DNA from: Gerris lacustris
Taxonomy: Eukaryota > Arthropoda > Insecta > Hemiptera > Gerridae
DNA: 64,000 nt
Direction of reading: 5' to 3'
Assembly (NCBI GenBank): GCA_951217055.1
Contig: OX578276.1
Span: forward strand, 158,688,010-158,752,009
Shown here: positions 15,886 to 30,128 of the stretch, in pieces
Layout of the letters: the number at the start of each line of letters is the position of its first letter
How positions within the stretch are numbered: position 1 is the stretch's first letter
Program-made: the position numbers and the translations under genes
The notes under the pieces: generated by a model
Told to the model about the DNA's origin: nothing
Seen by the model: the letters and a program-made list of their open reading frames with translations, nothing else
The model's database searches: none

Positions 15886-16220
15886 AAAGATACTTACTCC
15901 TTACCTACTTAACCCTTCATTTAAGAACTAGCAGAAGATTTTAAGAAGAGTAACTTTTCTTCGGAAAATAACATTTTTTTTTTGTCATTGCAAGTATTAT
16001 CACCCCGATCCGAGGACACCCTATATATCAATTAATTCCTATTTCATAATTTAATATTCCTAAGGAAACTTAGCATATTTATAATTATAATTATCTTTTT
16101 AAAACAGTATTAATTAGTTATATAATATATTATATTGATTCCCCTGACTCAAACCGAGAAGTGTTATTTAATGTTATAATGGAATACGTTAGTAGTCATT
16201 GGGGCACTTGAGCCAGACGC

Positions 16221-16228
16221 TGACGTCA
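16221..16228. promoter_or_regulatory. CRE/ATF palindrome, left TIR
   Basis: TGACGTCA sits 31 bp from the terminus inside a longer palindrome GCTGACGTCAGC, near a second palindrome TGGCGCCA (16,236-16,243). Full CRE sites bind CREB/ATF dimers; the function here is inferred. Confidence 0.5.
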
Positions 16229-16372
16229 GCAAGACTGGCGCCAAGTGAACTACCCTACCGCAACCCCCCACCCCTTGTCTAGGTCAAGTTCTTGACCTAC
16301 CTCACCCCCTGACCTACCTCAACCTTGTTGTTGTTTTGATTTTTGGTGCCTTCCCCCTCCCCTCCTACTTTT

Positions 16373-16600
16373 CGTATTTATTATTTTTGAATTTGCCGGG
16401 TTACCCCCCTCTGTGCCCCCCTCTTACGTCACGTGTCGGCCATGCTGGATTCTGAATTTTCGTATTTATTATTTTTGAATTTGCCGGGTTACCCCCCTCT
16501 GAGCCCCCCTCTTACGTCACGTGTCGGCCATGCTGGATTCTGAATTTTCGTATTTATTATTTTTGAATTTGCCGGGTTACCCCCCTCCTAGACTACCTAG
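16373..16600. repeat. 88-bp tandem repeat in left TIR (2.6 copies)
   Basis: Unit starts at 16,373, 16,461 and 16,549, each reading cgtatttattatttttgaat then gccgggttacccccctc. The first two full units carry TTACGTCACGTG, which overlaps a CRE half-site and an E-box. The long frame through it (16,521-16,739) is not a gene: it simply crosses the repeat and the tRNA-like unit. Confidence 0.85.
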
Positions 16601-16673
16601 TACGTCAATTACTTTTATTATTTTCAATTTGAATATAGCGCCCTCGCCTCTGAACCTGGGGCCTGTAAACGTT

Positions 16674-16752
16674 AAAAATGTATATCTGGGATTTGAACCC
16701 CGACTTCCCAGGTGCCGAGCGAACGCTCTATCGACTTAGACATTTGACCGCT
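16674..16752 (-). ncRNA. tRNA-like Pol III unit, left TIR
   Basis: Minus-strand mirror of the right unit. B box GGTTCAAATCC lies at 16,689-16,699, A-box-like TGTCTAAGTCGA at 16,731-16,742, and the T5 terminator at 16,674-16,678. The direction is outward, toward the element end. The acceptor stem does not pair, so it is tRNA-derived, not a working tRNA. Confidence 0.6.
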
Positions 16753-16975
16753 TGGAAAACAATGTACAAATGCATCTATAAGAGAGAACAGAGGTCGACA
16801 TTTTCATACTCTCTTTCTCTTTCCTATACCTTATAAGGAGTAGAGAGAGAGGGAAGTAGAGCGAAGGCAAGGCTAACGGAAACGGCACGTGTTTTTTCCA
16901 TTGTATTATTTTTTTGCTGACAAGCTTAGATCTCTCATAATAATTTTATTAAATCAAATAATTTTATTTTTAGTT

Positions 16976-16978
<3 letters not shown>

Positions 16979-17073
<95 letters not shown>

Positions 17074-17205
17074 CTGTATTTTCTTTCTTTGTCACTCTAC
17101 AACTCTAGATATATTTAATGATAAACTGAAAATTGTTAAAAACAATTTATTATATTATATATAAGTATTTAAGCAACTAACTATATAACACTTACACACA
17201 TACAC

Positions 17206-17254
<49 letters not shown>
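16979..17254. repeat. TA and CA microsatellites in left TIR
   Basis: (TA) runs from 16,979 to 17,060 with a short (TG) tail, and (CA) from about 17,207 to 17,254. The open frame spanning 16,889-17,164 is just Tyr-Ile repeats from this tract. The mirror tracts in the right TIR (29,079-29,116 and 29,266-29,333) are shorter. Confidence 0.9.
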
Positions 17255-17259
<5 letters not shown>

Positions 17260-17486
17260 ACGTATAACATATCCTTTAGTGTTAGTGTATCTCTTTGTAA
17301 TTTATCTATCACAAGTTAAAATTATATTATGTTAAAAAATACACAATACATTTTGTATTTAAATGCATATAGAATAATCTATAGTATGTAAGCATTTTTT
17401 ATACACAGTTTGTGTAACAAAAGCTAGAGAAAGATATTTAATCGATGATTTTTTACAACTAAGATCAGTTGATTACTGTCTACATA

Positions 17487-18230
17487 ATGACGTACAATGT
17501 GTTAGCCGATTTAATTAGTTCCAAATACAATTTGAGAGCCAAGTATTACAAGAATAAATTGTTTAAAAATGATAAAATACGAAATATGCTTGATTTCTAT
17601 GTACCTTTTATTCAATTATTAGATGTAGGTTTGAAAGGCAAGAAAAATCTCCCAAAGTCAGTTTCGAACGTATCTACTTCTACAGATATTGACGATTCTC
17701 AAACAGAAACCCAAAATACTGATCAAACGAAATTTCTGGAGGACAATGAAATTGTGGAATACAATCCAGAAAAATCTGTGCAGGATATATTTGCAGAACA
17801 ATCTTATTTAGAAAAATCACAGTTACTAGATGAACTCCCAGACATAGCTAGATCTTTTATCGAAATGCTTTTGACAAACGACCCTACATTAGATCATGTT
17901 TACGGTATAAGTTTAAATGAAAATAACGAGCTTCAAATCGGTCAGACAATTGTGGAGATAGATCGTTTAGGGGGTGATATATTACTAAAAAGAAATACAG
18001 AAGATGATAGTGGAAATATTCTGAGTGAAACAATAGCAGAATATGAGGGGACCCATGGATTATATGCATTGTTATTTAAAAAGAATCCTGGTTACTATAC
18101 CGAGAATGATAAAAATAACTATAATAATATTTTACATTTATCTGGCGCTATAAAAAATGCGTATAAAGGAGTTAACCGTTTTTCTCACAAGTTCAAAACG
18201 GTTGTTAACAGTTTTTTGACAAATCAATAA
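17487..18230 (+). CDS. DUF8207-like protein A (straddles the TIR boundary)
   Basis: A 247-residue protein from the ATG at 17,487; an in-frame TTG lies 18 bp upstream. The N-terminal half is charged and Ser/Thr-rich. The C-terminal half (about residues 135-225) carries DHVYGISLNE, an IGQTIVEID-like strand, GTHGLYALLFKKNPGYYTE and DKNNYNNILHLSGA. This is the layout of the DUF8207 domain often found in arthropod Polinton-linked proteins, and it aligns block by block with the protein at 22,720-23,532. Function unknown. The first 114 codons lie in the TIR, so a truncated second copy exists at the other end. An AATAAA lies 31 bp after the stop. Confidence 0.75.
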   Translation: MTYNVLADLISSKYNLRAKYYKNKLFKNDKIRNMLDFYVPFIQLLDVGLKGKKNLPKSVSNVSTSTDIDDSQTETQNTDQTKFLEDNEIVEYNPEKSVQDIFAEQSYLEKSQLLDELPDIARSFIEMLLTNDPTLDHVYGISLNENNELQIGQTIVEIDRLGGDILLKRNTEDDSGNILSETIAEYEGTHGLYALLFKKNPGYYTENDKNNYNNILHLSGAIKNAYKGVNRFSHKFKTVVNSFLTNQ

Positions 18231-18861
18231 GGTTGCTCTAGGGTATTTTTTATATTGTTAAATAAAACATTTACAACTATACCCTATATCAAGGATATAG
18301 GGGGAAGCATCAGAAATGAACTGCTGAACAACTTTGCATATTTCCTGCAAATGATCTTGGAAGTTTCGTACCACTGTATCGCACCAAGAATATGTTTTAC
18401 CCCTGTATAAACTATTACATTTCTTAACTGTGTAACACTTAACTTAAGAATAAATTATAAAATATGTATTTTGCTTGTTTAATTTAATAAAAAAATCACC
18501 TTTATCCTACTTTTTTAAAATAGTAAAAAATCTTACTTTAAAAGACTCTACAGGTCTATACAGTACCCTAAAATGTATAATGATACAATAAACAGAATAG
18601 AGATTTACACTGTTAAACAACAGGACAATAATTATTCAAGGAACCTAATTAAAATAAAAAAAACAACAACTTCAAAGTTATTTTTTTTTTTTACAAAAAA
18701 AAAAATTTATTATATTACAATATTATACATGCATTAAATATATCAAATTATTTTAACAATTAGACTAGGAGACATTTAGGCGAACACCATTTGTGATGCT
18801 CGCTATTATTTGTACAGTTAGATATATACCTCATAATTATATTACAAAAAAAAATTATAAT
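18231..18861. other. Non-coding gap between converging genes
   Basis: It holds the poly(A) signal AATAAA at 18,261 for the rightward gene, then AT-rich sequence with T and A runs near 18,680-18,705. No coding sequence is supported. Confidence 0.6.
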
Positions 18862-19818
18862 TTAAAAATCGATAGAGTCTTGTGGTTCCTTAGGGGTAAT
18901 TTGTAGGTCTTGTAAAACATTGTTTGTATCCTCTGGAGTTTTAACACTGTTTTCCCTACACGCTAGCTCATGTTTTAGCTTTTGTATACTACGTTCCGTT
19001 TCTCTGAGTTTTTCATCGGTAGATTCTAATTCCTCTGTTATGAGTTGTAAACAATCTTCAGTAGCCTTAATACCATGGGTCGTAGAATTTATTTCGTATA
19101 TTAATCGATTTATATAGTCTTCCGTAGACTCGTGCTCTTGTGGAGGATCTTCTATAGACGACGATTCGGGTAAAATTTGAATAGTAGGTACATCCTCTTG
19201 AAACATGTCATGTGTAGATCTTAACTCTTGCAGGGCATCCAAAGGGTTGTACATGGCATCTACAGGATCGTGTGTAGTAACATTAGAACTCTTGGTAATG
19301 AATCCAACGGAGCTGGGGTTATTGTAGATCCAAGTAGCAAGGCTCTTTGCTATAGCGTGTGTACAGCTAGTATACGGGCTATGGACGGTATGAAATATAC
19401 AATTATCGAAACTGCTAGGGAAATTATACTGAAACCCTTCTAAAGCAGCAATATTTATTACGGGTTTCCGTATAATCCTTTCAATCAGTTCTATGTTACC
19501 ATATGCCAATACGACTCGCGCCTTGTCGACATGATTCGGTAAAGTTTCGTTGAACTTGGTTAAAGATGTAGTTGAGTAAGGTCTTATCTCATTTCTTCTT
19601 GTCTTGTAAGCGTAGCAGTTATCGTATTGTGTCATGTTACTGGGGATGCGTAATATGTAGTGAAATGTTGTTTCAGGGGTGGTGATAGTAAGCTCTTTGG
19701 GAAGTTGTTGGTCTTCTGGTCCGGGTATAGATTCAAGACAAACAATCACCCAGGGATAACTGTAGTCAATTTTTCCTCTCATACCGGCAAATTTGTAAGA
19801 TTTCTTGACAGGAGCCAT
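18862..19818 (-). CDS. Accessory protein with Cys/His (exonuclease-like fold?) domain and coiled coil
   Basis: 318 residues. The N-terminal 165 residues include YPWVIVCLES, a PKELTI segment, ARVVLAYGNIELIERII, PVINIAAL and CIFHTVHSPYTSC (C140, H143, C152), then LATWI. The order 'strand, G..E, strand, C..H..C, L..W' matches the N-terminal part of the BIR protein at 27,660 and resembles the decayed DEDDh/Maelstrom-like nuclease domain seen in many arthropod transposon proteins. That resemblance is tentative. Residues 230-295 form a Glu/Lys-rich coiled coil. The protein begins MAPVKK. It is transcribed toward the DUF8207-like gene. Role unknown; a nucleic-acid-binding or scaffold part is possible. 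Confidence 0.65.
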   Translation of the reverse strand: MAPVKKSYKFAGMRGKIDYSYPWVIVCLESIPGPEDQQLPKELTITTPETTFHYILRIPSNMTQYDNCYAYKTRRNEIRPYSTTSLTKFNETLPNHVDKARVVLAYGNIELIERIIRKPVINIAALEGFQYNFPSSFDNCIFHTVHSPYTSCTHAIAKSLATWIYNNPSSVGFITKSSNVTTHDPVDAMYNPLDALQELRSTHDMFQEDVPTIQILPESSSIEDPPQEHESTEDYINRLIYEINSTTHGIKATEDCLQLITEELESTDEKLRETERSIQKLKHELACRENSVKTPEDTNNVLQDLQITPKEPQDSIDF

Positions 19819-20409
19819 AGTGTCTCAGAGTATTAACTATTGATAACTGAACGTTAAAACACTTTCCTCTCCACACCAAATCAAAAATAAATCAAATTCG
19901 ACTTTAAATATATAGTGAATTGAAATACGGTAGAAATTTATTTTAGAATAAAAAAAATGCTGACTGTTAATATTGCACGTGCAGACGAAAAGTATACGGG
20001 GTGTTTGATCGAAAAATAGGTCGATTCCCCCTCCACAGATTTTTTTTTTTACTTTTTTTGTATTACTACAAATATCAAACGAATGTTTAATTTTTAACTG
20101 TATTTCAACAACACCTCTAATTAGCACTACCATCTCTAAACAGCTCTAAGGTATTTACACTCACATTATTACAATTAACTTAATTAATTTAATCAAATAA
20201 AAGTAGTTCATATTGTATCATATATTCATTTTTATTATTAGAAATAAGTAGTGTTAATTATCCTTTTTTTTTAATAATAATATAACTTAATTTTTGTAAT
20301 TAAATCAATAATTCATTTGCAAACCCTGTTCTCAATGTAAAGGCTGTGTTAGTGTAATATCATAATATAATATGTTAGTATCTGTATAGAATTTATTTTT
20401 ATTTTGCAG
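19819..20409. other. Divergent intergenic region, likely promoters
   Basis: It separates the leftward gene at 18,862-19,818 from the rightward spliced gene. It ends in tttttattttgcag directly before the ATG at 20,410. This is a good 3' splice site, so the rightward transcript may carry a spliced 5' leader. No TATA element is convincing. Confidence 0.5.
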
Positions 20410-20861
20410 ATGTCTTCACTTGCTAAAAAATTAAATGATTCTAAACTAAACGCAAGGTTTATAAAAGTTACTGAACTACATGCAAACCATTGCTACAGTA
20501 TACTGAGGTTTCAGAAAGTCGGTAGTAAATTTGGACCGTGCCTCCTGGCTGAAATACGAATAGATGAAATCCCCACCTTTGTTTGTCTACCAGCAAGATT
20601 TGAGGATAGACTTAGCGCTGAGGAACTTAAAACTTATAACGGTGAGTTATAATAATAAATTTGCTTTCTTATTAAAAACAAAAACAAAAAACAAACTTAG
20701 TTTTAATAAATATTTTAAATTTTAATGTATATTTTATTGTATATTGTTTAGAAACTACGCCGTGTACTCTTGATCTGATATTTCGAGGCATCGGTACGAA
20801 TGCGAAAAATCAGAAAATTCATCTTGTAGATATTGAAGATACCCCTCTCGAAGATCAATAA
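20410..20861 (+). CDS. Small spliced OB-like protein (two exons)
   Basis: Exon 1 is 20,410-20,641 and exon 2 is 20,752-20,861. The 110-bp intron starts GTGAGT and ends TTGTTTAG, and the frame is kept across it, giving 113 residues. The protein has NARFIKVTELHANHCYSILR, FQKVGSKFGPCLLAEI, a VCLPARF strand and LIFRGIG. This pattern ('vtEL..n..Y.Il.f..v.tkfG......ei.....vfLP.Rf...l') recurs in small arthropod Polinton-linked proteins and would fit an OB-type single-strand DNA-binding fold, which is inference. Transcription is rightward, away from the 18,862 gene. The start was taken at the ATG, since the upstream in-frame TTG lies in the splice acceptor. Confidence 0.7.
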
Positions 20862-21070
20862 CATTAATGAAAAAGTAAAAATGTTTAAAGAAACAACAAC
20901 TATTGTATATTTTTTAGAAATTGATATGAATAAAAAGCCTGTAAATAATACTTATTTATTTCTTTACCTTATATCTATAATTAGTATAAGAATAGTAGTT
21001 AAGATATCTTATAAATAATGAATAAAATAAAACTCTTTTAATTTTATGATTTATTAATTAACAATTACAT

Positions 21071-21162
<92 letters not shown>

Positions 21163-21301
21163 GTAAGTAAGTTATTTTCTAACCTTTAAATTAGAACATT
21201 ATTTGTTAAGAGAAAAAATAATAATTTAAAAATAACAAACATAAACGTTTTGAACAGTAACACTATGTTAAAACAATTTACACATAGTTTATACTAATTT
21301 A
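20862..21301. other. Non-coding with TA microsatellite
   Basis: Gap between the converging spliced gene and the integrase gene. A (TA) run of about 84 bp fills 21,073-21,156. Short frames here are AT-rich noise. Confidence 0.7.
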
Positions 21302-22225
21302 TTAATATGCTTGTTTCATTTTAGTGATGCTCTCCCAGGTGTTTTCTCTGGAAGATAAACCAAGCCATTTAATGTATAATTTTCTACCTTTCTTTTTTAA
21401 AATCGATTCTACAAGGTAAGAATCGGGGTATTTAACAGAAGTTAACTCTTGCTCGTAAAAGGACCCTACAATGGGGTTTCCTCTAGAATCTTGAAGCATA
21501 TATGTCACAGGAAAGGTTTTGTTTTTAATTTCAAGAATTTGAAATATCTCAGTGCTAAAATTTGCATGGTAACCTTTTGTAAAAACATTCTTGTGTTTTG
21601 AAATTCTCACATGGTCCCCTACAGAGAATCTAGGAGGGCGTTTGTCAAGTTTTATTTTTCTGTACAGGTTAACCGGAGTCTCAGGACCCACCTCAATAGG
21701 TTTCAATTTTGTTGTAGAATGAATAGTGTTATTATATTCTTTAACGAGTTCCGGTAGTATTTCTATCCATCTAAAACTTCCTTGAATAGCAAACTTCTTC
21801 CACATTTTAGTTTTTAGAGTTCTATTGAAACGTTCTACTATAGTAGCTTTTAGACCAGAATGAGTGATGTAATGATTAATACCAAGATTATCAATCAGGT
21901 CTTTAAACGTTTTGTTAAAAAATTCAGTTCCCTTGTCTGTATGGAGATTCTTGGGTGTTTGTTCTTTAAATATTTTTCTAATTGCGTCTGTCACAAGAGC
22001 ACCTGATTTATTCTTGAGAGGTACAGCCCAGGCGTACTTAGAATATGCGTTGATAACTGTTAGTATATAATTGAATCGATCATTAACTCGAGCGTATGCA
22101 TTCATCTGAACTAAGTCAGCTTCAAATAAATCGTCATAACCCTTTATTTTAACTTTACGTCTAACAAACTTTTTTCTTGCCGGACGATATATTTCATTAA
22201 CTATTTGTTCTTTTACCCTGTCCAT
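21302..22225 (-). CDS. DDE integrase (rve) with C-terminal chromodomain
   Basis: A 307-residue retroviral-type integrase that would insert the element and make the 6-bp duplication. The catalytic triad is visible: D37 in EADLVQM, D97 in HTDKGTEF and E131 in VERFNR, with about 33 residues between the last two. IYRPARKKF near residues 12-20 resembles the usual Polinton entry. An SH3-like region follows (PRFSVGDHVRISK), then a chromodomain-like end (YLVESILKKKGRKLYIKWLG, ENTWES), which may bias targeting to chromatin. No N-terminal zinc-binding HHCC module is present in this frame. It is the last gene of the leftward block. The start is the only good ATG. Confidence 0.95.
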   Translation of the reverse strand: MDRVKEQIVNEIYRPARKKFVRRKVKIKGYDDLFEADLVQMNAYARVNDRFNYILTVINAYSKYAWAVPLKNKSGALVTDAIRKIFKEQTPKNLHTDKGTEFFNKTFKDLIDNLGINHYITHSGLKATIVERFNRTLKTKMWKKFAIQGSFRWIEILPELVKEYNNTIHSTTKLKPIEVGPETPVNLYRKIKLDKRPPRFSVGDHVRISKHKNVFTKGYHANFSTEIFQILEIKNKTFPVTYMLQDSRGNPIVGSFYEQELTSVKYPDSYLVESILKKKGRKLYIKWLGLSSRENTWESITKMKQAY

Positions 22226-22243
22226 TTAAAAGTAGACTGATGT

Positions 22244-22684
22244 TTATACTACTTCGTCAGGTATTTTTATACGCTCGGTTTTGAATGTTATGTTAAACAT
22301 ATGCGACATAAATCTTAAAAATTCACCCCACACTATGGTTTGATTGTCATCAAAATTAATAATCATAGTTCTACCTGCATCATCTTTTGCGAGAGAGCGT
22401 AATCTTAAAAAATTATTATCTACGTAATTCTTAGTTGCAGTATCAAACATTTCAACTGGATCTCCTACATGACTCAGGCGTTTTCCGTCGAAATCAAACA
22501 CATCATTTTTTATATACTTTGTATCAAATGATTCACTGATCAAAATGTCTTTAAGATATTCAAGATTAACGGCATCGCTGTTTTCTTGAGGATTGCTTAC
22601 GTTTATAATACGCTGATGTCTAGCATCAATATCTCCAGAGTGATAGTTCTGGAGATAATGGCGTCCGTACTTATCCACGGGCAT
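22244..22684 (-). CDS. Fibre-like repeat protein
   Basis: 146 residues. Two repeats have the form seen in trimeric phage tail-fibre shafts ('rI.nv..P....DAv...Yl'): RHQRIINVSNPQENSDAVNL-type at residues 23-45 and RLSHVGDPVEMFDTATKNYV near 69-88. This suggests a trimeric fibre or vertex spike on the capsid, perhaps for host attachment, which is an inference from repeat style. It sits between integrase and DUF8207-like protein B in the leftward block, 18 bp upstream of the integrase start and 35 bp downstream of the DUF8207-like stop. There is no signal peptide or membrane segment. Confidence 0.65.
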   Translation of the reverse strand: MPVDKYGRHYLQNYHSGDIDARHQRIINVSNPQENSDAVNLEYLKDILISESFDTKYIKNDVFDFDGKRLSHVGDPVEMFDTATKNYVDNNFLRLRSLAKDDAGRTMIINFDDNQTIVWGEFLRFMSHMFNITFKTERIKIPDEVV

Positions 22685-22719
22685 TGTGAGACTGATACAT
22701 TTTCTGTCAAGTTTTCAAA

Positions 22720-23532
22720 TTAATATATGACTCCCTGAATCTTTAAAGAAGTGATTATCGACTGTATCTCTTCTGCATGTGAGTTCCCTGATTCTTCAGA
22801 GTTCCATAATAATTCAAGTCGGTATAGCATGTCTAAAATGTTGTTTGAACACGGCTTATAGACTCCTAGTTCCAAACCTCTCCCGAATAACGGAGCAATA
22901 ATCTTTGAGTATTTGTAACCCTTATTTGCGTTAATTGATTTATCTGCGGTATATGTTTTTTTGTGTGCATTTGTTTGCACCAGTATAGATTTATAGTTAT
23001 CCAAGTCCTCCTGATCATAGTGTTTCGGTTTATTCCGTGTTAACAATTGTAACAATCCTTCTGTATACTTATATCTGGAATCACCAATTCTTAAGTGTCT
23101 CTTTCCTAAACGTAACTGTGTATCTCCGATCCAGAATTTACTACCGTCAAATCTGGGGCCATAAATTCGATCACTTTTCTTATCCTCGGTCAACTCGAGA
23201 AAGTCCTTAACATCAAATATTTTCTTTTCGGAATATTCCTCTGTCGGTTCCTCCTCCTCCATCGCTACGGTATTGATTTCTTTAACAGTTTTTTCTACTT
23301 TATCGTCTTCGGTATTAGTTACTTCAATGACAGGCTTTTTTAACTCTTCTACTTTAACCCCTTTGGATGCAATTTCACCTGCTATTGTATCCAGAGGTTC
23401 TTTAAGGAGTGCCACCTGTCTTTTAATTATTTCCTTTTGTTCTGCTAAATCATTTTTCAGCGATTGCATTTTCAGTCTAACTGTCTCAGCCATTTTAGCG
23501 ATTTTTTCTGTCATTACACGCTCAGTCTCCAT
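22720..23532 (-). CDS. DUF8207-like protein B
   Basis: 270 residues beginning METERVMTEK. Residues 1-75 form a heptad-rich coiled coil (KIAKMAETVRLKMQSLKNDL). A Glu-rich linker (EEEEPTEEYSEK) follows. The domain at about 120-205 reads DRIYGPRFDGSKFWIGDTQL, RYKYTEGLLQLLTRNKPKHY and DLDNYKSILVQTNAHK, the DUF8207 pattern shared with protein A. Family members are frequent in arthropod Polinton-linked loci; their role is unknown. Structural or DNA-linked roles are both possible. The ATPase gene ends 6 bp before its start, so the two are probably co-transcribed. Confidence 0.75.
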   Translation of the reverse strand: METERVMTEKIAKMAETVRLKMQSLKNDLAEQKEIIKRQVALLKEPLDTIAGEIASKGVKVEELKKPVIEVTNTEDDKVEKTVKEINTVAMEEEEPTEEYSEKKIFDVKDFLELTEDKKSDRIYGPRFDGSKFWIGDTQLRLGKRHLRIGDSRYKYTEGLLQLLTRNKPKHYDQEDLDNYKSILVQTNAHKKTYTADKSINANKGYKYSKIIAPLFGRGLELGVYKPCSNNILDMLYRLELLWNSEESGNSHAEEIQSIITSLKIQGVIY

Positions 23533-23538
23533 TGCAAA

Positions 23539-24249
23539 CTAACTATGACTTTCAAAATCATCAGGTATTATATATTGATCCAAGTTACGACGATACCTTC
23601 CATTATGTATTTCGAATTCGGGGATAATTGTTAAAAATGAATACTTACCTCCTGACCATGCATAGTTACATATTTTAACAAACTTGTCAAAACCCATATC
23701 AAAAATATGATTCTGAAATGCGTGACGTAAATTGAGATGGTCCTGTGGAAATAAAATACACATGTTTGCATTGTCTCTTATCATACGTTTAGGTATTTTA
23801 GAATATGTTTGACAAAGGTAAAAACTATCTACATGACGATGCCTGCCCATTGAAAAGAAATCCAATATTTTCTCCTGTTTTGCACTAGCGATATCATCAA
23901 ATATAAACACAGAATTTGGTTTAGCGTCTTGAGTAGAAACTACTTCCTGATCATTTGAATATGTAAAGTATCCCATCTCAGGTATTTGTTCGAATATCTG
24001 TTTTAATAAATTAAATTTCGGTTGGAATAGAGAATGAGAAAAAACGTAAACATTCTCGAAACGTAGACCTTTTGGGTGTGTCAATAGTACTACAACTACA
24101 TTTGTTTTACCGCAGTTTGACGGACCACTAATGAGACAACGTATGCTATTAGGAAGTAGGGGAGAATGACGGATCAACGATTGCTCATATTCGCTAAACG
24201 GTAAAACATCTTCGATCTTTAGTGACACATCCTGTTGTTCCAACTTCAT
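23539..24249 (-). CDS. FtsK/HerA-type DNA-packaging ATPase
   Basis: 236 residues. Walker A GPSNCGKT is at 42-49 and Walker B SVFIFDD at 113-119, followed by a sensor-like LCQTYSKIPKRMIRDNANMC region. Length and motif spacing fit the A32-like packaging ATPases of Polintons, virophages and adenovirus-like viruses, which pump genomic DNA into preformed capsids. The region around LISGPSNCGKTNVVVVLL is strongly hydrophobic, as usual for the P-loop strand. It is the first gene of the leftward block and diverges from the PLA2 gene across 50 bp. Confidence 0.92.
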   Translation of the reverse strand: MKLEQQDVSLKIEDVLPFSEYEQSLIRHSPLLPNSIRCLISGPSNCGKTNVVVVLLTHPKGLRFENVYVFSHSLFQPKFNLLKQIFEQIPEMGYFTYSNDQEVVSTQDAKPNSVFIFDDIASAKQEKILDFFSMGRHRHVDSFYLCQTYSKIPKRMIRDNANMCILFPQDHLNLRHAFQNHIFDMGFDKFVKICNYAWSGGKYSFLTIIPEFEIHNGRYRRNLDQYIIPDDFESHS

Positions 24250-24320
24250 GTTTTCAACTGTGTTTGAGACTAATTTTACTATAGTATAAATAGATAGACA
24301 TGAATCGTTACAACCACAGT
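24250..24320. promoter_or_regulatory. Compact bidirectional promoter
   Basis: TATAAATA (24,285-24,292) lies between the divergent ATPase and PLA2 genes. It reads TATTTATA on the other strand, about 36 bp from the ATPase ATG, a fitting TATA distance for the leftward transcript. On the plus strand it is only 8 bp from the first PLA2 ATG but 29 bp from an in-frame ATG at codon 8 (24,321). Confidence 0.55.
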
Positions 24321-25052
24321 ATGACTCTATCTGTTAAAGGCTTAGGATTAATAAACAGCGCTATCAATAAACTACCGTTTGAATTACATCTGCCTTCATA
24401 TAATTATTGTGGTCCAGGTACTAAATTGGCCAAACGTTTAAAGAGAGGAGACAAACCTGTAAACGAATTAGATCGTGCATGTTTAGAACACGATATAGCG
24501 TATTCAAAAAGTAAAGAGGTTAGTGACAGACATAAACCCGATAAGACTCTTATAGAAAAGGCTTGGAGTCGTGTGAAAGCTGCTGATTCATCGTTAGCTG
24601 AAAAAACCTCTGCATATCTGGTAACAAATATAATGAAAGGTAAAGTCAAAGTTGGAGGCAAATTAGGAAACAAGGCTAAACCTAAAAAGAAGAAGACAGG
24701 TGGAGGAGTTAGCAAGAAGAAGAAACAGAATGAACAACAAGTGACGGCTGCCGTACGTACCGTTAAGAAAGTTGTAAAACGAAAACCTCGTTTATTAAAA
24801 AATCCTACAAAAGGGGGGTTTTTGCCCCTAGTTTTAGCAGGGCTTGGAGCGTTAGGCAGTCTTGTCGGTGGTTCGTCTGCGGCTTTGAAAGCCTACAATG
24901 ACTCTAAGACTGCACAAAAAACTCTAGAAGAGGTAGCCCGACACAATAGAGTTTTAGAACATCAATCCGTAGGTAATGGATTCTACTTGGCACCGTATAA
25001 AGTTGGTTCGGCAGTACACAGGACCAAACATCGTAAGACACAAAAAAACTAA
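24300..25052 (+). CDS. Parvovirus-like phospholipase A2 / minor virion protein
   Basis: 250 residues. The PLA2 core shows a calcium loop NYCGPGT at 35-41 and the catalytic pair CLEHD at 61-65 (H64, D65), followed by IAYS. This matches the secreted-PLA2-like domain of parvovirus VP1, which opens endosomal membranes during entry. Residues 115-165 are Lys-rich. Residues 172-198 form a Gly/Ala/Leu hydrophobic segment (GGFLPLVLAGLGALGSLVGG) recalling adenovirus core or membrane-lytic proteins. The C-terminus is basic. Given the TATA position, initiation at M8 (MTLSVKGLGL) is plausible. The stop overlaps the protease start (TAATG). Confidence 0.9.
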   Translation: MNRYNHSMTLSVKGLGLINSAINKLPFELHLPSYNYCGPGTKLAKRLKRGDKPVNELDRACLEHDIAYSKSKEVSDRHKPDKTLIEKAWSRVKAADSSLAEKTSAYLVTNIMKGKVKVGGKLGNKAKPKKKKTGGGVSKKKKQNEQQVTAAVRTVKKVVKRKPRLLKNPTKGGFLPLVLAGLGALGSLVGGSSAALKAYNDSKTAQKTLEEVARHNRVLEHQSVGNGFYLAPYKVGSAVHRTKHRKTQKN

Positions 25053-25435
25053 TGTCTTTGCTCCCTGTAAATGCAATGTCTAATTACGATCTAGATCTTT
25101 ACGCTAAAATTCTACGCATACCCAATTATCGTGGGACGTTTATGCAAAATAACTTACCCAACAAGCGTAAACCTTTAGAATGTTTGATATATAATCTCGA
25201 TAACAGACAAAATGGACAGGGAACCCATTGGGCCTGTGTTATAGTTTACGAGCCTATATCGCTAGTGTTTGATAGTTACGGATTACCCCCACCACCATCC
25301 GTAAAAGAATATTTACGAGGGAGCTGTATATTTTTTAACGAAGAGCAAGTGCAATTTGACGGAGAACTGTGCGGTCCGCTTTGTCTAGCGTTTCTTTATA
25401 TGGTGATGTTTACGTTAGTTGACAGTCAGAAATGA
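25052..25435 (+). CDS. Adenain-like cysteine protease
   Basis: 127 residues. Catalytic elements in order are H59 in GTHWACVIV, D74 in VFDSYG, a Gln near 99-101, and C107 in ELCGPLCLAF. This is the H-D/E-Q-C arrangement of adenovirus protease and the Ulp1-related enzymes of Polintons and virophages. They cut capsid and core precursors during particle maturation. It is short compared with adenain (about 200) but complete around all catalytic residues. The ATG overlaps the PLA2 stop by one base and its own stop overlaps the penton start by four (ATGA). Confidence 0.9.
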   Translation: MSLLPVNAMSNYDLDLYAKILRIPNYRGTFMQNNLPNKRKPLECLIYNLDNRQNGQGTHWACVIVYEPISLVFDSYGLPPPPSVKEYLRGSCIFFNEEQVQFDGELCGPLCLAFLYMVMFTLVDSQK

Positions 25436-26169
25436 ATTATACGTTCACTCTAACGGGTACGAGCTCTGAACTCGTATCAGATATTTTTCCACCAGTTGAA
25501 TTAAATAATGAAAATTATTCTATAGCAGTCGTAAGTTTTACCGGTTATAATTCGTTCCCTAACGTCATTGAAAATGTTAATAATAAATTGCATATTATAG
25601 ATAACAACGGGGTTACAGACGTCATAGAGTTTCCAACAGGATCCTATGAAATTACAGGACTAAACTCATATTTAAGCAAACAACTTGAAAGAAGAAATTA
25701 CTCTATAAAATTTATCGGAAATAATAATACTCTAAAGACTGAAATTAAGTCGAATGTACAAATTGATTTTTCCAAACCTCATTCTATCGGTTCTCTAATA
25801 GGGTTTGACCCTGTAATGAAAAAACTGAAAAACTCCCGTTTGGAAGCTGATCGTATTGTAGACATATCACCTGTTCAAATTGTACAAGTTGAATGTAATA
25901 TAGCTGAAGGTGTATATAGCAATGCACTGCGTAACGATAATGCCAGTGTACGAACCCATGTCATTCATTCGTTTGCACCAAAGGTAGCGCCAGGGTATAA
26001 ATTATTGGACACTCCTAGTAAACTTATTTATTACCCTGTCAGGACTCATAGAGTAGACAACATAAAACTTCGCTTGTTAGATCAAAATTTTAGATTATTG
26101 GACTTTAGAGGAGAACGTGCTACTGTAGTATTGCATATGACTAACAATAACAATGGCTCTGGATTTTAG
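25432..26169 (+). CDS. Penton-like minor capsid protein (single jelly roll)
   Basis: 245 residues, beta-rich. It has FTLTGTSSELVSDIFPPVEL, NYSIAVVSFTGYNSFPNV, IEFPTGSYEI, then VQVECNIAEGVYSN, PKVAPGYKLLDTPSKLIYYP and NIKLRLLDQNFRLLDF. This conserved order is that of Polinton/adintovirus-type penton proteins, which form pentameric vertices. The protein ends NNNNGSGF. Position between protease and capsid gene fits. The stop overlaps the start of the small basic protein by 17 nt. Confidence 0.85.
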   Translation: MNYTFTLTGTSSELVSDIFPPVELNNENYSIAVVSFTGYNSFPNVIENVNNKLHIIDNNGVTDVIEFPTGSYEITGLNSYLSKQLERRNYSIKFIGNNNTLKTEIKSNVQIDFSKPHSIGSLIGFDPVMKKLKNSRLEADRIVDISPVQIVQVECNIAEGVYSNALRNDNASVRTHVIHSFAPKVAPGYKLLDTPSKLIYYPVRTHRVDNIKLRLLDQNFRLLDFRGERATVVLHMTNNNNGSGF

Positions 26170-26299
26170 TAGTTATAAAATACGTAGAGGTTCGAAGAAG
26201 ACCGTTCACGGTTCAGGTCTTATTCAATATATTCCAACGAGGTTCGTAAATTTGTTGGAACGTAAAGGATACAATGTGCGGTCTACATGGATGTTTTAA
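26153..26299 (+). CDS. 48-residue basic protein
   Basis: This short frame overlaps the penton 3' end. It begins MALDFSSYKIRRGSKK, has HGSGLIQYIPTRFVNLLERK and ends TWMF. It is about 20 percent Arg/Lys, which would suit a small core or DNA-condensing peptide. I do not recognise a named family. The overlap with penton and the intact frame support it; the small size keeps confidence moderate. Confidence 0.55.
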   Translation: MALDFSSYKIRRGSKKTVHGSGLIQYIPTRFVNLLERKGYNVRSTWMF

Positions 26300-26305
26300 A
26301 AACGA

Positions 26306-26313
26306 TATAAATA
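26306..26313 (+). promoter_or_regulatory. TATA box for the major capsid gene
   Basis: TATAAATA, same octamer as at 24,285. It is followed 22-30 bp later by tacacagtt, an initiator-like position, and the capsid ATG lies at 26,364. Together these suggest a separate transcript for the capsid gene. Confidence 0.55.
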
Positions 26314-26363
26314 CTCTGGTTAGAATGAGCTAGTACACAGTTACGGCTGAACCTCTTTACACT

Positions 26364-27590
26364 ATGGACCTGTTGGATATTGCTCAACCTCCTACGTTTC
26401 AAGAGGAGATAACCCGTTATCAATGGCATACTTTTAATCCGTATGTAACAAGTGGTGAATATGCAAACAACGATGAAATTCGCATTGCCGCTCACTCTCA
26501 AGACATTCTCACTCATCCGGAGAAAAGTTATATTGCTGTGGATGTGTCTGTTACATCGGAGACTACAGGGGGAGCAGCAGATCTTAAAACACAACTCGTA
26601 AACAATGCAATGGCTCATTTGTTCAGTGAAATAAGATACGAATTAAATGGCGTAGAGGTTGATTCTGTTAGAAATTTAGGTGTCGCTAGCACTCTAAAAG
26701 GTCTAGTATCGCTGAATCCCGAACACTCTAAAGCTTTAAGTAACGCTTGTTGGCTGAGTGAACCTAATAAAACGATAGCTATTAACGGAAAATATTCATT
26801 TTTAATTCCTTTAAAGCAATTACTCGGTTTTGCCGAATTTTACCAAAGGATTGTAATACATATGAAACAAGAACTTATTTTAGTGCGTGCTCAGTCTAAC
26901 AACGAGGCTATACTTCGAAAACAGGGAGTAGAGGACAAGACATTTTCTTTAAAAATAGTCAAAGTATCATGGCTTTTACCTGTCGTAGAGTTGGACGATC
27001 GCTCCCGGCTTAAAATGCTCACAATCTTACAAAGAGATCAACCTATAACAATGGCTTTCCGTAGTTGGGAGTGTTTGTACTATCCCACTTTACCAGTAAC
27101 AGACAGGCAAACATGGTCCGTAAAACTTTCCAACAGTCTGGAAAAACCCCGCTTTGTATTATTAGCTTTTCAAACCGATCGTAGAAATAATATTCATAAA
27201 AATTCCAGTATGTTTGATCACTGCGACCTACGTAACATTAAATTATATTTGAACGGAGAAACGTACCCTTACGACGATTTAAACCTCAATTTTAACACAA
27301 ATGGTTACGCTATGCTTTATGAAATGTATAGTCAATTTCAAACATCTTATTACCAGAAGCAAAATCCTAAACCGTTATTGACCCCAGAAGAATTTAAAAA
27401 TTTAGCCCCCATCATAGTAATTGATTGTAGCAAACAAAAAGATGCAGTGAAACCTTCTTCTGTTGACGTTCGCTTAGAATTTTCTGCCAGATCAAATTTC
27501 CCTCCCAATACTAGTGCATATTGTCTAATACTTCATGATCGTTTAGTTCAATATACTCCGTCGGACGGTAGAATACAAAAATTAGTATAA
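26364..27590 (+). CDS. Hexon-like major capsid protein (double jelly roll)
   Basis: 408 residues. The N-terminus (MDLLDIAQPPTFQEEITRYQ) and strands such as ATSSYIAVDVSV-type SYIAVDVSVTSE, MAHLFSEIRYELNGVEVDSV and NKTIAINGKYSFLIPLKQLLGF are the conserved first-barrel words of Polinton/adintovirus-type capsid proteins. The second half has MAFRSWECLYYP and RNIKLYLNGETYPYDDLNL. Such proteins trimerise into pseudohexameric capsomers. Length suits a compact member. The frame is intact, so the element could build a shell. It is preceded by its own TATA box. Confidence 0.88.
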   Translation: MDLLDIAQPPTFQEEITRYQWHTFNPYVTSGEYANNDEIRIAAHSQDILTHPEKSYIAVDVSVTSETTGGAADLKTQLVNNAMAHLFSEIRYELNGVEVDSVRNLGVASTLKGLVSLNPEHSKALSNACWLSEPNKTIAINGKYSFLIPLKQLLGFAEFYQRIVIHMKQELILVRAQSNNEAILRKQGVEDKTFSLKIVKVSWLLPVVELDDRSRLKMLTILQRDQPITMAFRSWECLYYPTLPVTDRQTWSVKLSNSLEKPRFVLLAFQTDRRNNIHKNSSMFDHCDLRNIKLYLNGETYPYDDLNLNFNTNGYAMLYEMYSQFQTSYYQKQNPKPLLTPEEFKNLAPIIVIDCSKQKDAVKPSSVDVRLEFSARSNFPPNTSAYCLILHDRLVQYTPSDGRIQKLV

Positions 27591-27659
27591 AAGAAAAAGA
27601 GAAAATCTAGTAGACAACGAACATTCGAGCCGATAACATCTCTCTCTCTAGTTTCCAAC

Positions 27660-28310
27660 ATGACGACCGGTATTTTTGATATTCAATTCTATCACGGTTC
27701 ACGTATGGTTCGCGAAATTGCATTGCTAGAACTGCCGTGTAAACTAGTGTTTCATCTAACTTTCTCTCAGGATGACTCTATATACTTGCCGGACTTTGAA
27801 ACTAAAATTTTCTCTGATTATCCTGAACATAATTTTACACATATGAATAATCTATTGTACCATCTATTAGATCTATATTTTCGTAAGTACGATTTCATTT
27901 TAATGAAAGGAAAGGACAAATTCATGTATCTACGACATTTATTCACAAAACATCAGATTTACATGTTGGATTCATTTAACTGCCCTAGAGTGAAACATTT
28001 GGATAATAATGAGTACCATTGTTTTACACATAAAGAGAAGATTGCATGTGCTGTATCTAGAGTTTTTGCATTGGGTAACTGGTGTGTGGAAAATGACTTA
28101 AGTTTATATAACATGACAACCAGATTGCAGACTTTTAAGAACTGGGGGGTAAACATAGAACCGGAAAAACTAGCTGCTAACGGTATGATCCAGTGGAATA
28201 AAAATATTACACGTTGTGTATACTGCAAAGAATATATAAACGGGTGGGATAATTGTACAAATATTAACGATCATCACAAATGGAGTTCACCAGATTGTCT
28301 TCTAGTCTAA
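27660..28310 (+). CDS. BIR-domain (IAP-like) protein with Cys/His N-domain
   Basis: 216 residues. The C-terminal domain (155-213) has RLQTFKNWG, a GMIQW block, then C186-x2-C189-x16-H206-x6-C213, the exact BIR zinc spacing of inhibitor-of-apoptosis proteins, with GWDNC in the usual W-D position. There is no RING, so it may bind caspases or IAP antagonists without ubiquitin-ligase activity. The N-terminal 145 residues (FDIQFYHGSRMVREIALLEL, FILMKGKDKFMYLR, C121-x2-H124-x5-C130, then LGNW) match the N-domain of the protein at 18,862-19,818 and look like a degraded nuclease-type fold. It is the last gene of the capsid block, with AATAAA at 28,362. Confidence 0.8.
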   Translation: MTTGIFDIQFYHGSRMVREIALLELPCKLVFHLTFSQDDSIYLPDFETKIFSDYPEHNFTHMNNLLYHLLDLYFRKYDFILMKGKDKFMYLRHLFTKHQIYMLDSFNCPRVKHLDNNEYHCFTHKEKIACAVSRVFALGNWCVENDLSLYNMTTRLQTFKNWGVNIEPEKLAANGMIQWNKNITRCVYCKEYINGWDNCTNINDHHKWSSPDCLLV

Positions 28311-28476
28311 CTAATTGTTGAATAATTTGATGTATTTAATACATGTATAATATTGTAATATAATAAAAAAAAATATAACTTTGAAGTTGTTGTTTATATT
28401 TTTTAATTAGGTTCCTCAAAACTTAGTAATATTGTTCAATATCTAATTTACTCTAGTGTAGAATAAGTAGGTTTTT

Positions 28477-28848
28477 CTAATAGAGACATAAGTTAAATAC
28501 AACGAATAGTAACTGTGATTTTTCTAAATAAGATTGTTCTGCAAATATATCCTGCACAGATTTTTCTGGATTGTATTCCACAATTTCATTGTCCTCCAGA
28601 AATTTCGTTTGATCAGTATTTTGGGTTTCTGTTTGAGAATCGTCAATATCTGTAGAAGTAGATACGTTCGAAACTGACTTTGGGAGATTTTTCTTGCCTT
28701 TCAAACCTACATCTAATAATTGAATAAAAGGTACATAGAAATCAAGCATATTTCGTATTTTATCATTTTTAAACAATTTATTCTTGTAATACTTGGCTCT
28801 CAAATTGTATTTGGAACTAATTAAATCGGCTAACACATTGTACGTCAT
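28477..28848 (-). pseudogene. Truncated TIR copy of DUF8207-like protein A
   Basis: 123 codons from the ATG at 28,848. The first 114 are the same as in the left copy because they lie in the TIR. After the TIR edge at 28,507 the frame adds nine unrelated residues and stops. The DUF8207 domain is missing. It might still be made as a short N-domain protein, since its upstream sequence is identical to that of the full gene. Confidence 0.7.
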
Positions 28849-29075
28849 TATGTAGACAGTAATCAACTGATCTTAGTTGTAAAAAATCATCGATTAAATA
28901 TCTTTCTCTAGCTTTTGTTACACAAACTGTGTATAAAAAATGCTTACATACTATAGATTATTCTATATGCATTTAAATACAAAATGTATTGTGTATTTTT
29001 TAACATAATATAATTTTAACTTGTGATAGATAAATTACAAAGAGATACACTAACACTAAAGGATATGTTATACGT

Positions 29076-29119
<44 letters not shown>

Positions 29120-29251
29120 GTGTATGTGTGTAAGTGTTATATAGTTAGTTGCTTAAATACTTATATATAATATAATAAATTGTTTTTAACAATTTTCAGT
29201 TTATCATTAAATATATCTAGAGTTGTAGAGTGACAAAGAAAGAAAATACAG

Positions 29252-29337
<86 letters not shown>

Positions 29338-29560
29338 AACTAAAAATAAAATTATTTGATTTAATAAAATTATTATGAGAGATCTAAGCTTGTCAGCAAA
29401 AAAATAATACAATGGAAAAAACACGTGCCGTTTCCGTTAGCCTTGCCTTCGCTCTACTTCCCTCTCTCTCTACTCCTTATAAGGTATAGGAAAGAGAAAG
29501 AGAGTATGAAAATGTCGACCTCTGTTCTCTCTTATAGATGCATTTGTACATTGTTTTCCA

Positions 29561-29639
29561 AGCGGTCAAATGTCTAAGTCGATAGAGCGTTCGCTCGGCA
29601 CCTGGGAAGTCGGGGTTCAAATCCCAGATATACATTTTT
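29561..29639 (+). ncRNA. tRNA-like Pol III unit, right TIR
   Basis: A-box-like TGTCTAAGTCGA (29,571-29,582) matches 10 of 12 consensus positions. B box GGTTCAAATCC (29,614-29,624) matches 10 of 11. The spacing is tRNA-like, and TTTTT at 29,635-29,639 gives a Pol III stop, so the predicted RNA is about 70-80 nt. The T arm folds (4 of 5 pairs around TTCAAAT), the D arm is weak, and the acceptor stem does not pair. It could be a SINE head or tRNA relic, or a small viral RNA gene. Confidence 0.6.
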
Positions 29640-29712
29640 AACGTTTACAGGCCCCAGGTTCAGAGGCGAGGGCGCTATATTCAAATTGAAAATAATAAAA
29701 GTAATTGACGTA

Positions 29713-29940
29713 CTAGGTAGTCTAGGAGGGGGGTAACCCGGCAAATTCAAAAATAATAAATACGAAAATTCAGAATCCAGCATGGCCGACACGTGACGTA
29801 AGAGGGGGGCTCAGAGGGGGGTAACCCGGCAAATTCAAAAATAATAAATACGAAAATTCAGAATCCAGCATGGCCGACACGTGACGTAAGAGGGGGGCAC
29901 AGAGGGGGGTAACCCGGCAAATTCAAAAATAATAAATACG
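29713..29940. repeat. 88-bp tandem repeat in right TIR
   Basis: Mirror of the left array with the same copy number and the same two CACGTGACGTAA motifs. Confidence 0.85.
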
Positions 29941-30084
29941 AAAAGTAGGAGGGGAGGGGGAAGGCACCAAAAATCAAAACAACAACAAGGTTGAGGTAGG
30001 TCAGGGGGTGAGGTAGGTCAAGAACTTGACCTAGACAAGGGGTGGGGGGTTGCGGTAGGGTAGTTCACTTGGCGCCAGTCTTGC

Positions 30085-30092
30085 TGACGTCA
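30085..30092. promoter_or_regulatory. CRE/ATF palindrome, right TIR
   Basis: Mirror copy of the left site, again 31 bp from the terminus within GCTGACGTCAGC. Confidence 0.5.
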
Positions 30093-30128
30093 GCGTCTGG
30101 CTCAAGTGCCCCAATGACTACTTACGTT

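Follow-up and report, generated by a model that had tools for sequence, protein, structure and literature searches.

A Maverick-like element of Gerris lacustris with capsid and integrase genes and no detectable polymerase B, and a polymerase-bearing element with nearly the same ends

The 64,000-nucleotide stretch of the Gerris lacustris genome that was analyzed here (the window; contig OX578276.1 of assembly GCA_951217055.1, positions 158,688,010 to 158,752,009) contains a 13,932-bp Maverick (Polinton) type element, called A, at positions 16191 to 30122. Its lineage has kept the capsid and integrase genes, appears to have lost its DNA polymerase B (PolB), and shares its genome with C44, an element whose ends are almost those of A and in which a PolB but no capsid or integrase gene is detectable. 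Polintons, in the part of the source available to us, are described as self-replicating elements with genes of their own for a protein-primed PolB and for a DDE integrase (PMC6431247).

Element A, its copies and the search for a polymerase

The termini of A are exact: AGTAGTCATTGGGGC reads inward from either end, and the 6-bp target-site duplication (TSD) that flanks the element is perfect. The two terminal inverted repeats (TIRs) are 98.6% identical; their alignment has a single mismatch and opens two gaps. The left TIR contains 88-bp repeats (16369-16632) and a TA/CA microsatellite, and the microsatellite region accounts for the difference in length between the repeats (1638 vs 1616 bp). A first-pass annotation, made from the letters of the window, had described A as a complete, recently inserted Maverick without PolB, with exact termini, a perfect TACGTT duplication, 1.6-kb TIRs, thirteen coding units and no gap above about 630 bp. 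The sequence and the TIR alignment bear out the ends. The coding units correspond to 12 different genes, one of them read as two exons, together with the TIR gene's truncated second copy on the right, and the largest non-coding gap measures 631 bp (18231-18861). Together with the polymerase search described below, the ends, TSD and TIRs uphold the description as a whole. The same annotation had listed an integrase, an ATPase, a protease and both capsid genes. Pfam recognizes the integrase, the ATPase and the major capsid protein (MCP), and the protease and the penton are putative, assigned by position or motif.

Pfam scans of the 13 open reading frames (ORFs) of A found no PolB family; nor was a helicase or primase recognized by Pfam among these frames, the sole material scanned for the two functions. 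Six PolB pieces taken from the genome itself (from families B, F and G, described below, and from C44) then served to make a PolB profile, which was run over all six-frame pieces of at least 20 amino acids of A and of 26 loci (L021-L046). Nothing significant was found in A, the best match (E=0.54) falling on the integrase. In the loci, by contrast, seven PolB frames scored between 374 and 1712 bits with it. Six were sources of the profile itself; the remaining one, from family C, was not among its sources and scored 434 bits. The profile thus reaches beyond its own members, because it finds a PolB that Pfam had missed. The earlier statement that 16,191-30,122 holds no PolB therefore withstood the six-frame search.

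The MCP was used to search the genome (937 Mb in 69 contigs). As 102 of 313 first-look candidates were scored, the resulting counts are lower bounds. At least 104 matches were found, among them at least three copies of A, the window's included, which have identical MCP proteins and are located on two chromosome-size contigs; at a fourth place there is a fragment at 98%. Copy 2 (C1:4610329, read as L021 and L022) has, in the 16 kb read, the gene order of A and no match to the PolB profile, and is 99.4% identical in DNA over 9.4 kb. Copy 3 (C4:25141113-25155054) has a TSD of its own, AACAGA; the TSD is perfect in both copies where it was read (the window's and copy 3). A is not a single damaged copy, because sister copies exist, one of them with the same PolB-less layout.

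Copy 2 is interrupted. Its right TIR stops after 45 bp, and an AGTAG terminus begins precisely there (L022:2146-2191, i.e. C1:4612474-4612519): probably a Maverick nested in a Maverick.

Shared ends and the PolB-bearing element C44

A search of the genome with the first 180 bp of A gave 77 candidates, of which 40 were scored. All 40 are 97-100% identical to A, and we paired them into 16 inverted pairs, leaving 8 singles. Among the matches listed, three pairs enclose an A-type MCP, two enclose a PolB without a listed MCP, and 11 enclose neither. The element C44 (Table 1) has a perfect TSD and TIRs that are 98% like each other. Along about 1.45 kb, allowing for gaps, these TIRs are 91-98% like those of A, apart from one 114-bp piece at 85%. 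C44 contains a PolB frame that is open over 1275 amino acids and a helix-turn-helix (HTH)-like remnant. No match to the capsid proteins, ATPase or integrase of A was found in C44, all of which was read except about 1.4 kb inside the PolB gene, the comparison of the TIR stretches being limited to their DNA and their open frames. The suggestion made on the first pass, that A might be a satellite of a PolB-bearing relative, gains support in that such a relative with matching TIRs is present in the same genome. The relation looks complementary rather than one-sided, however, because C44 has no detectable capsid gene or integrase. A sister copy with the TIRs of A and a PolB at the site of a deletion scar was not found among the 16 pairs (40 of 77 places scored; a 36-kb PolB pair lies outside the reading).

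One of the 11 pairs with neither gene, on contig C3, is near-palindromic and gene-poor, with no match to capsid, PolB or integrase in the 9.5 kb read. Samples from the other ten contain no match to A proteins or to PolBs; eight resemble the interior of the C3 element and two differ (repeats in the C6 pair, an unrelated 256-residue frame in the pair at C1:12.17 Mb). The TSD is perfect in seven of the nine evaluable pairs, namely A copy 3 and six of the eight without a listed PolB or MCP, and is absent from two (C1:51.8 Mb and C6:58.2 Mb; C8:69.5 Mb is outside this count). Elements with common ends, complementary genes in A and C44, and 6-bp TSDs thus occur together in one genome.

The C3 element also contains a 96-residue frame with a CHHC (U11-48K-like) zinc finger (PF05253, 1.6e-4; L043:4957-5244, G000 C3:86744156-86744443). 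We take this frame to be reminiscent of the piRNA factor GTSF1, and it is possibly a captured host gene directed against silencing.

How A could be replicated

We give an even chance to the following reading. A, a provirus or transposon of the Maverick kind, is intact but does without a replicase of its own, having given it up, and belongs to a set of elements with common ends, in which a C44-like PolB copies A, and an A-like integrase and capsid serve the others. The PolB of C44-like elements, which is presumably protein-primed, would start at the shared termini and copy A in trans. The A-like integrase would insert A, C44 and the gene-poor elements, and the A-like capsid may package all three. 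The reciprocal, bipartite-like part of the relation between A and C44 we only infer. Supply in trans seems to occur, because C44 and the C3 element have TSDs without a detectable integrase.

The other Mavericks of this genome bear on this reading. By its capsid, family B is the closest to A (MCP 90-91% identical), and in each of its three places listed a PolB is situated 7.8-8.5 kb away. The B copy that was read (TSD AGATTT) contains the TIR gene TIR253, a PolB (PF03175, 9.4e-43), an integrase split over two frames, the capsid module in the same gene order as in A, and the gene for the BIR protein. A sequence search of the Protein Data Bank (PDB) with this PolB returned no match. The ratio of non-synonymous to synonymous substitutions (dN/dS) between A and B is 0.04-0.20 in ten genes, and lowest in the ATPase and the MCP. 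The synonymous divergence (dS) is uneven, from 0.25 in the penton to 1.55 in TIR253. The gene P318, compared with families C and D and element P, has dN/dS of 0.16-0.21 at dS above 1.5. As far as sequence comparison goes, the purifying selection between A and B fits functional proteins.

Family C (27 MCP places listed at 72%, with a 411-residue frame) has both PolB and capsid. It was at one point taken to lack PolB, as its 1133-residue frame has no Pfam match, and this was rejected on the 434 bits of the own-genome profile; all three further copies tried have PolB at the same place. The ends of family C were looked for and not found. It has copies that are identical over 4.2 kb, and Mavericks are therefore recently active in this genome, as shown by a family that itself bears PolB. 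Families F and G have PolB (split over two frames in F) and capsid between TIRs with TSDs. The F element also carries a matrix-metalloprotease gene (L032:1725-2672; PF00413, 2.7e-25).

In family E (46-47%, 444-residue frame) four places are listed with a PolB within about 6 kb. Two places at 46% (L029/L030 and L035/L036) gave no PolB profile hit in the stretches read. Capsid genes of 46% families also occur as divergent pairs 7-9 kb apart (C1:97090172/97097959, C7:9908418/9915577 and C1:145992377/146001814), and at L035/L036 genes for MCP, protease, integrase and P270 lie in the inverted arms, so that the Maverick is built as a palindrome.

The lack of PolB recurs in family D. The one copy read (C2:25001616-25012402, 10.8 kb, with TIRs and the TSD TTTGGC) has no significant hit with the own-genome PolB profile. 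In a search with the D TIR, 40 of 129 candidates were scored and paired by us into 16 pairs. Eight of these (10.8-11.3 kb) contain a full-length D capsid gene and one (13.6 kb) a capsid fragment; in the remaining seven (9.5-12.3 kb) neither MCP nor PolB is among the matches listed. One of the capsid-less pairs, of which 5.5 kb was read, encodes an HTH-like protein with the tail of P270, and neither capsid nor PolB. A further MCP subgroup at 70-71% lies outside the D TIR set (26 places listed, E from 6.6e-208 to 1.6e-204); one of its members, at C1:158767297, is a Maverick outside the window with an MCP at 71%.

Element P (C4:30344238, read in part) has the left end of B (362 bp at 100%) and also, in part, the right end of B (465 bp at 98%). 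It contains PolB, integrase and the 146-residue gene; in the 8 kb after PolB the only match to capsid-module proteins of A is the P270 tail. Counts of MCP and PolB genes within 20 kb of each other (14 of 88 MCPs and 15 of 102 PolBs, among the matches listed) were set aside as biased, because the PF03175 lists miss some PolBs, such as that of family C. A viral contig collection gave 29 pattern-matching stretches, none of them a relative. Nine relatives of the MCP have a species name among 120 listed of 1283; they come from wasps and one sawfly, all Hymenoptera, at 43-47% identity.

Several points weigh against the reading in which C44 and A serve each other. Elements with both PolB and capsid coexist with A (B, C, F and G at least part-read, E by coordinates) and could serve it, and the outermost 20 bp or so of B resemble those of A. 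C44 is the only TIR-matched PolB element read, its replicase role is predicted, and its PolB is 42-48% identical to that of B; a second PolB candidate with an A TIR pair (C1:8103762-8139811, 36 kb) is known by coordinates only. The 11 pairs with neither gene rest on matches listed, the PF03175 list missing at least the family C PolB, and ten of them were sampled by 1.0-1.2 kb each. No PolB partner with D TIRs was found among the 16 D pairs (40 of 129 scored). Between two copies of A the changes are too few to judge selection (P270 has dN/dS of 1.04), and the comparisons of A with C and D are mostly saturated. Part of the A-B selection may predate the loss of the polymerase; the A-B dN/dS does not separate before from after. 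Finally, the TIR pair at C1:4600120-4630655 (30.5 kb), which is that of copy 2, holds an A capsid gene and a PolB frame. In our reading this PolB belongs to a different Maverick that sits inside the right TIR of A, with its far end outside the stretch read, because the AGTAG terminus starts where the TIR of A breaks off.

The foremost alternative, possible though on the whole doubtful, is a one-sided satellite: A and its gene-poor kin would have arisen by deletion or recombination and would be mobilized by whichever complete Maverick is in the cell (B, C, F, G or an exogenous virus), and C44 another non-autonomous derivative that kept PolB by chance. The coexistence of families with PolB and capsid, the gene order and outermost 20 bp common to B and A, the uneven divergence of their genes (dS 0.25-1.55), as expected of mosaics, and the preponderance of TIR-A pairs without PolB or MCP (11 of 16, among the matches listed) agree with this explanation. 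However, past those 20 bp B matches the TIR of A poorly, with 371 bp at 73% in the TIR253 gene and pieces of 45-81 bp, whereas C44 matches over about 1.45 kb. Furthermore, a pure parasite needs no open capsid and integrase genes, yet each of the two A copies in which the integrase was read keeps them.

The reading of mutual service can also be carried further, to a truly split, bipartite-like virus in which A would supply capsid and integrase and C44 the replicase, with further units as cargo; the TIRs would be common to all of them, and none could do without the others. This we consider rather unlikely; PolB-less capsid units would then have arisen at least twice (A and D).

It is decidedly unlikely that host polymerases copy A and that its own integrase suffices for insertion. 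The integrase frame is open and no replicase was found in A, but C44 and the C3 element have TSDs without a detectable integrase, and long homogenized TIRs fit protein-primed replication from the ends. That A is an artefact or a dead relic, PolB having been deleted by chance from one copy or the assembly having collapsed, is highly improbable: the degraded inverted echo of the BIR gene in the left interior is a sign of past rearrangement, but there are three copies of A with identical MCPs on two chromosome-size contigs, copy 2 has the same layout, and the TSDs of two copies are perfect.

Gene content and comparison with known systems

Table 1. Features of element A (positions in the window) and location of element C44
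Feature	Position	Strand	Basis
Left TSD, TACGTT	16185..16190		sequence
Left TIR, 1638 bp, starts AGTAGTCATTGGGGC	16191..17828	+	sequence
TIR253, TIR-spanning gene, 253 aa	17469..18230	+	ORF, homologues
Inverted echo of 28250-28416 (BIR gene tail), 79%-like	18640..18821	-	within the 631-bp gap
P318, 318-aa gene, coiled-coil-like C-terminus	18862..19818	-	ORF, homologues
Two-exon small protein (exons 20410-20641, 20752-20861)	20410..20861	+	splice sites by eye
Integrase, rve core and chromodomain	21302..22225	-	PF00665 7.2e-13, PF00385 1.3e-5
P146, 146 aa, weak phage T7 tail-fibre N-terminal match	22244..22684	-	PF03906 1.4e-5
P270, 270 aa	22720..23532	-	ORF
A32-type packaging ATPase	23539..24249	-	PF04665 2.3e-6
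Phospholipase A2-like protein	24300..25052	+	PF08398 2.3e-15
Putative adenain-like cysteine protease	25052..25435	+	motif by eye, position
Putative minor capsid protein (penton)	25432..26169	+	position alone
Double jelly-roll (DJR) MCP	26364..27590	+	PF21738 1.9e-115
Protein with C-terminal BIR (inhibitor-of-apoptosis) domain	27660..28310	+	PF00653 9.6e-9
Right TIR, 1616 bp, contains truncated TIR253 copy	28507..30122	-	sequence
Right TSD, TACGTT	30123..30128		sequence
C44 element, 14,056 bp, TSD AAGGTC	C44:212820-226875		

Homologues of TIR253 lie at the left end in families B and D and on the right side in family C, and part of TIR253 resembles P270. Homologues of P318 occur in families C and D and in the PolB element P, and no family B match was found within the B stretches read. 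Its predicted structure is uninformative (mean pLDDT 46.7). A likeness of P318 to the BIR protein that was seen by eye was rejected, as BLASTP gives no support. Exon 1 of the two-exon small protein is similar to two other genes, one close to PolB in family F and one in element P, and is presumably OB-like, as they are. The C-terminus of P270 is common to proteins of capsid-less elements that we take to be HTH-like; at L039 (reverse strand) and L046:3646-4845 such a protein is fused to the P270 C-terminus, with no capsid genes in the parts read. The putative protease of A has no Pfam match and no sequence match in the PDB, and the putative penton has no significant Pfam match. The inverted echo in the 631-bp gap is probably a remnant of an older, longer inverted repeat. 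Next to the element, retroelement frames (Copia, Pao and a LINE-like reverse transcriptase) lie within 31231-53533 of the window.

The TIRs of Polintons start with AG. A resembles these elements in its long AG-starting TIRs, 6-bp TSDs, rve integrase, packaging ATPase and DJR capsid protein. It differs in having no protein-primed PolB, whereas the nearly same-ended C44 has a PolB and no detectable capsid or integrase. Adintoviruses have integrase, ATPase, capsid and phospholipase A2-like genes, and PolB together with the integrase. A shares the first four, but PolB is absent from it. In the accessible part of Krupovic et al. (2014), nine of 72 Polintons are without MCP, protease and ATPase (PMC4028283); those elements lose the capsid set, and A shows the opposite loss.

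Polinton-like viruses (PLVs), as the available part of one account has it, mostly lack both the protein-primed PolB and the RVE integrase and carry other replication proteins (PMC11071308). A agrees with them in being without such a PolB, but unlike them it has an RVE integrase, and no replication protein was recognized in its 13 ORFs scanned. In the portions consulted of PMC11071308, PMC6035795, PMC6431247, PMC2871265 and PMC4028283 no Polinton with capsid and integrase and without PolB is described, and no paper on such a Polinton beside a same-ended PolB element was found in one open-access library, which is weak evidence of novelty.

If true, the reading in which A and C44 serve each other would show how virus-like transposons come apart into units that are dependent, as may have happened on the way to satellites and multipartite viruses, and would make the transition testable within one genome. 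Satellite viruses, virophages and multipartite viruses, such as bidnaviruses, divide their functions over separately moving units. The present case differs in that every unit is inserted in a chromosome of an animal and that the packaging of one partner by the other is inferred only. It is alike in that functions appear to be split between separately moving units: the genes of A and C44 complement each other and their ends nearly agree, which, with one PolB unit read, would fit the parts of a bipartite or multipartite virus.

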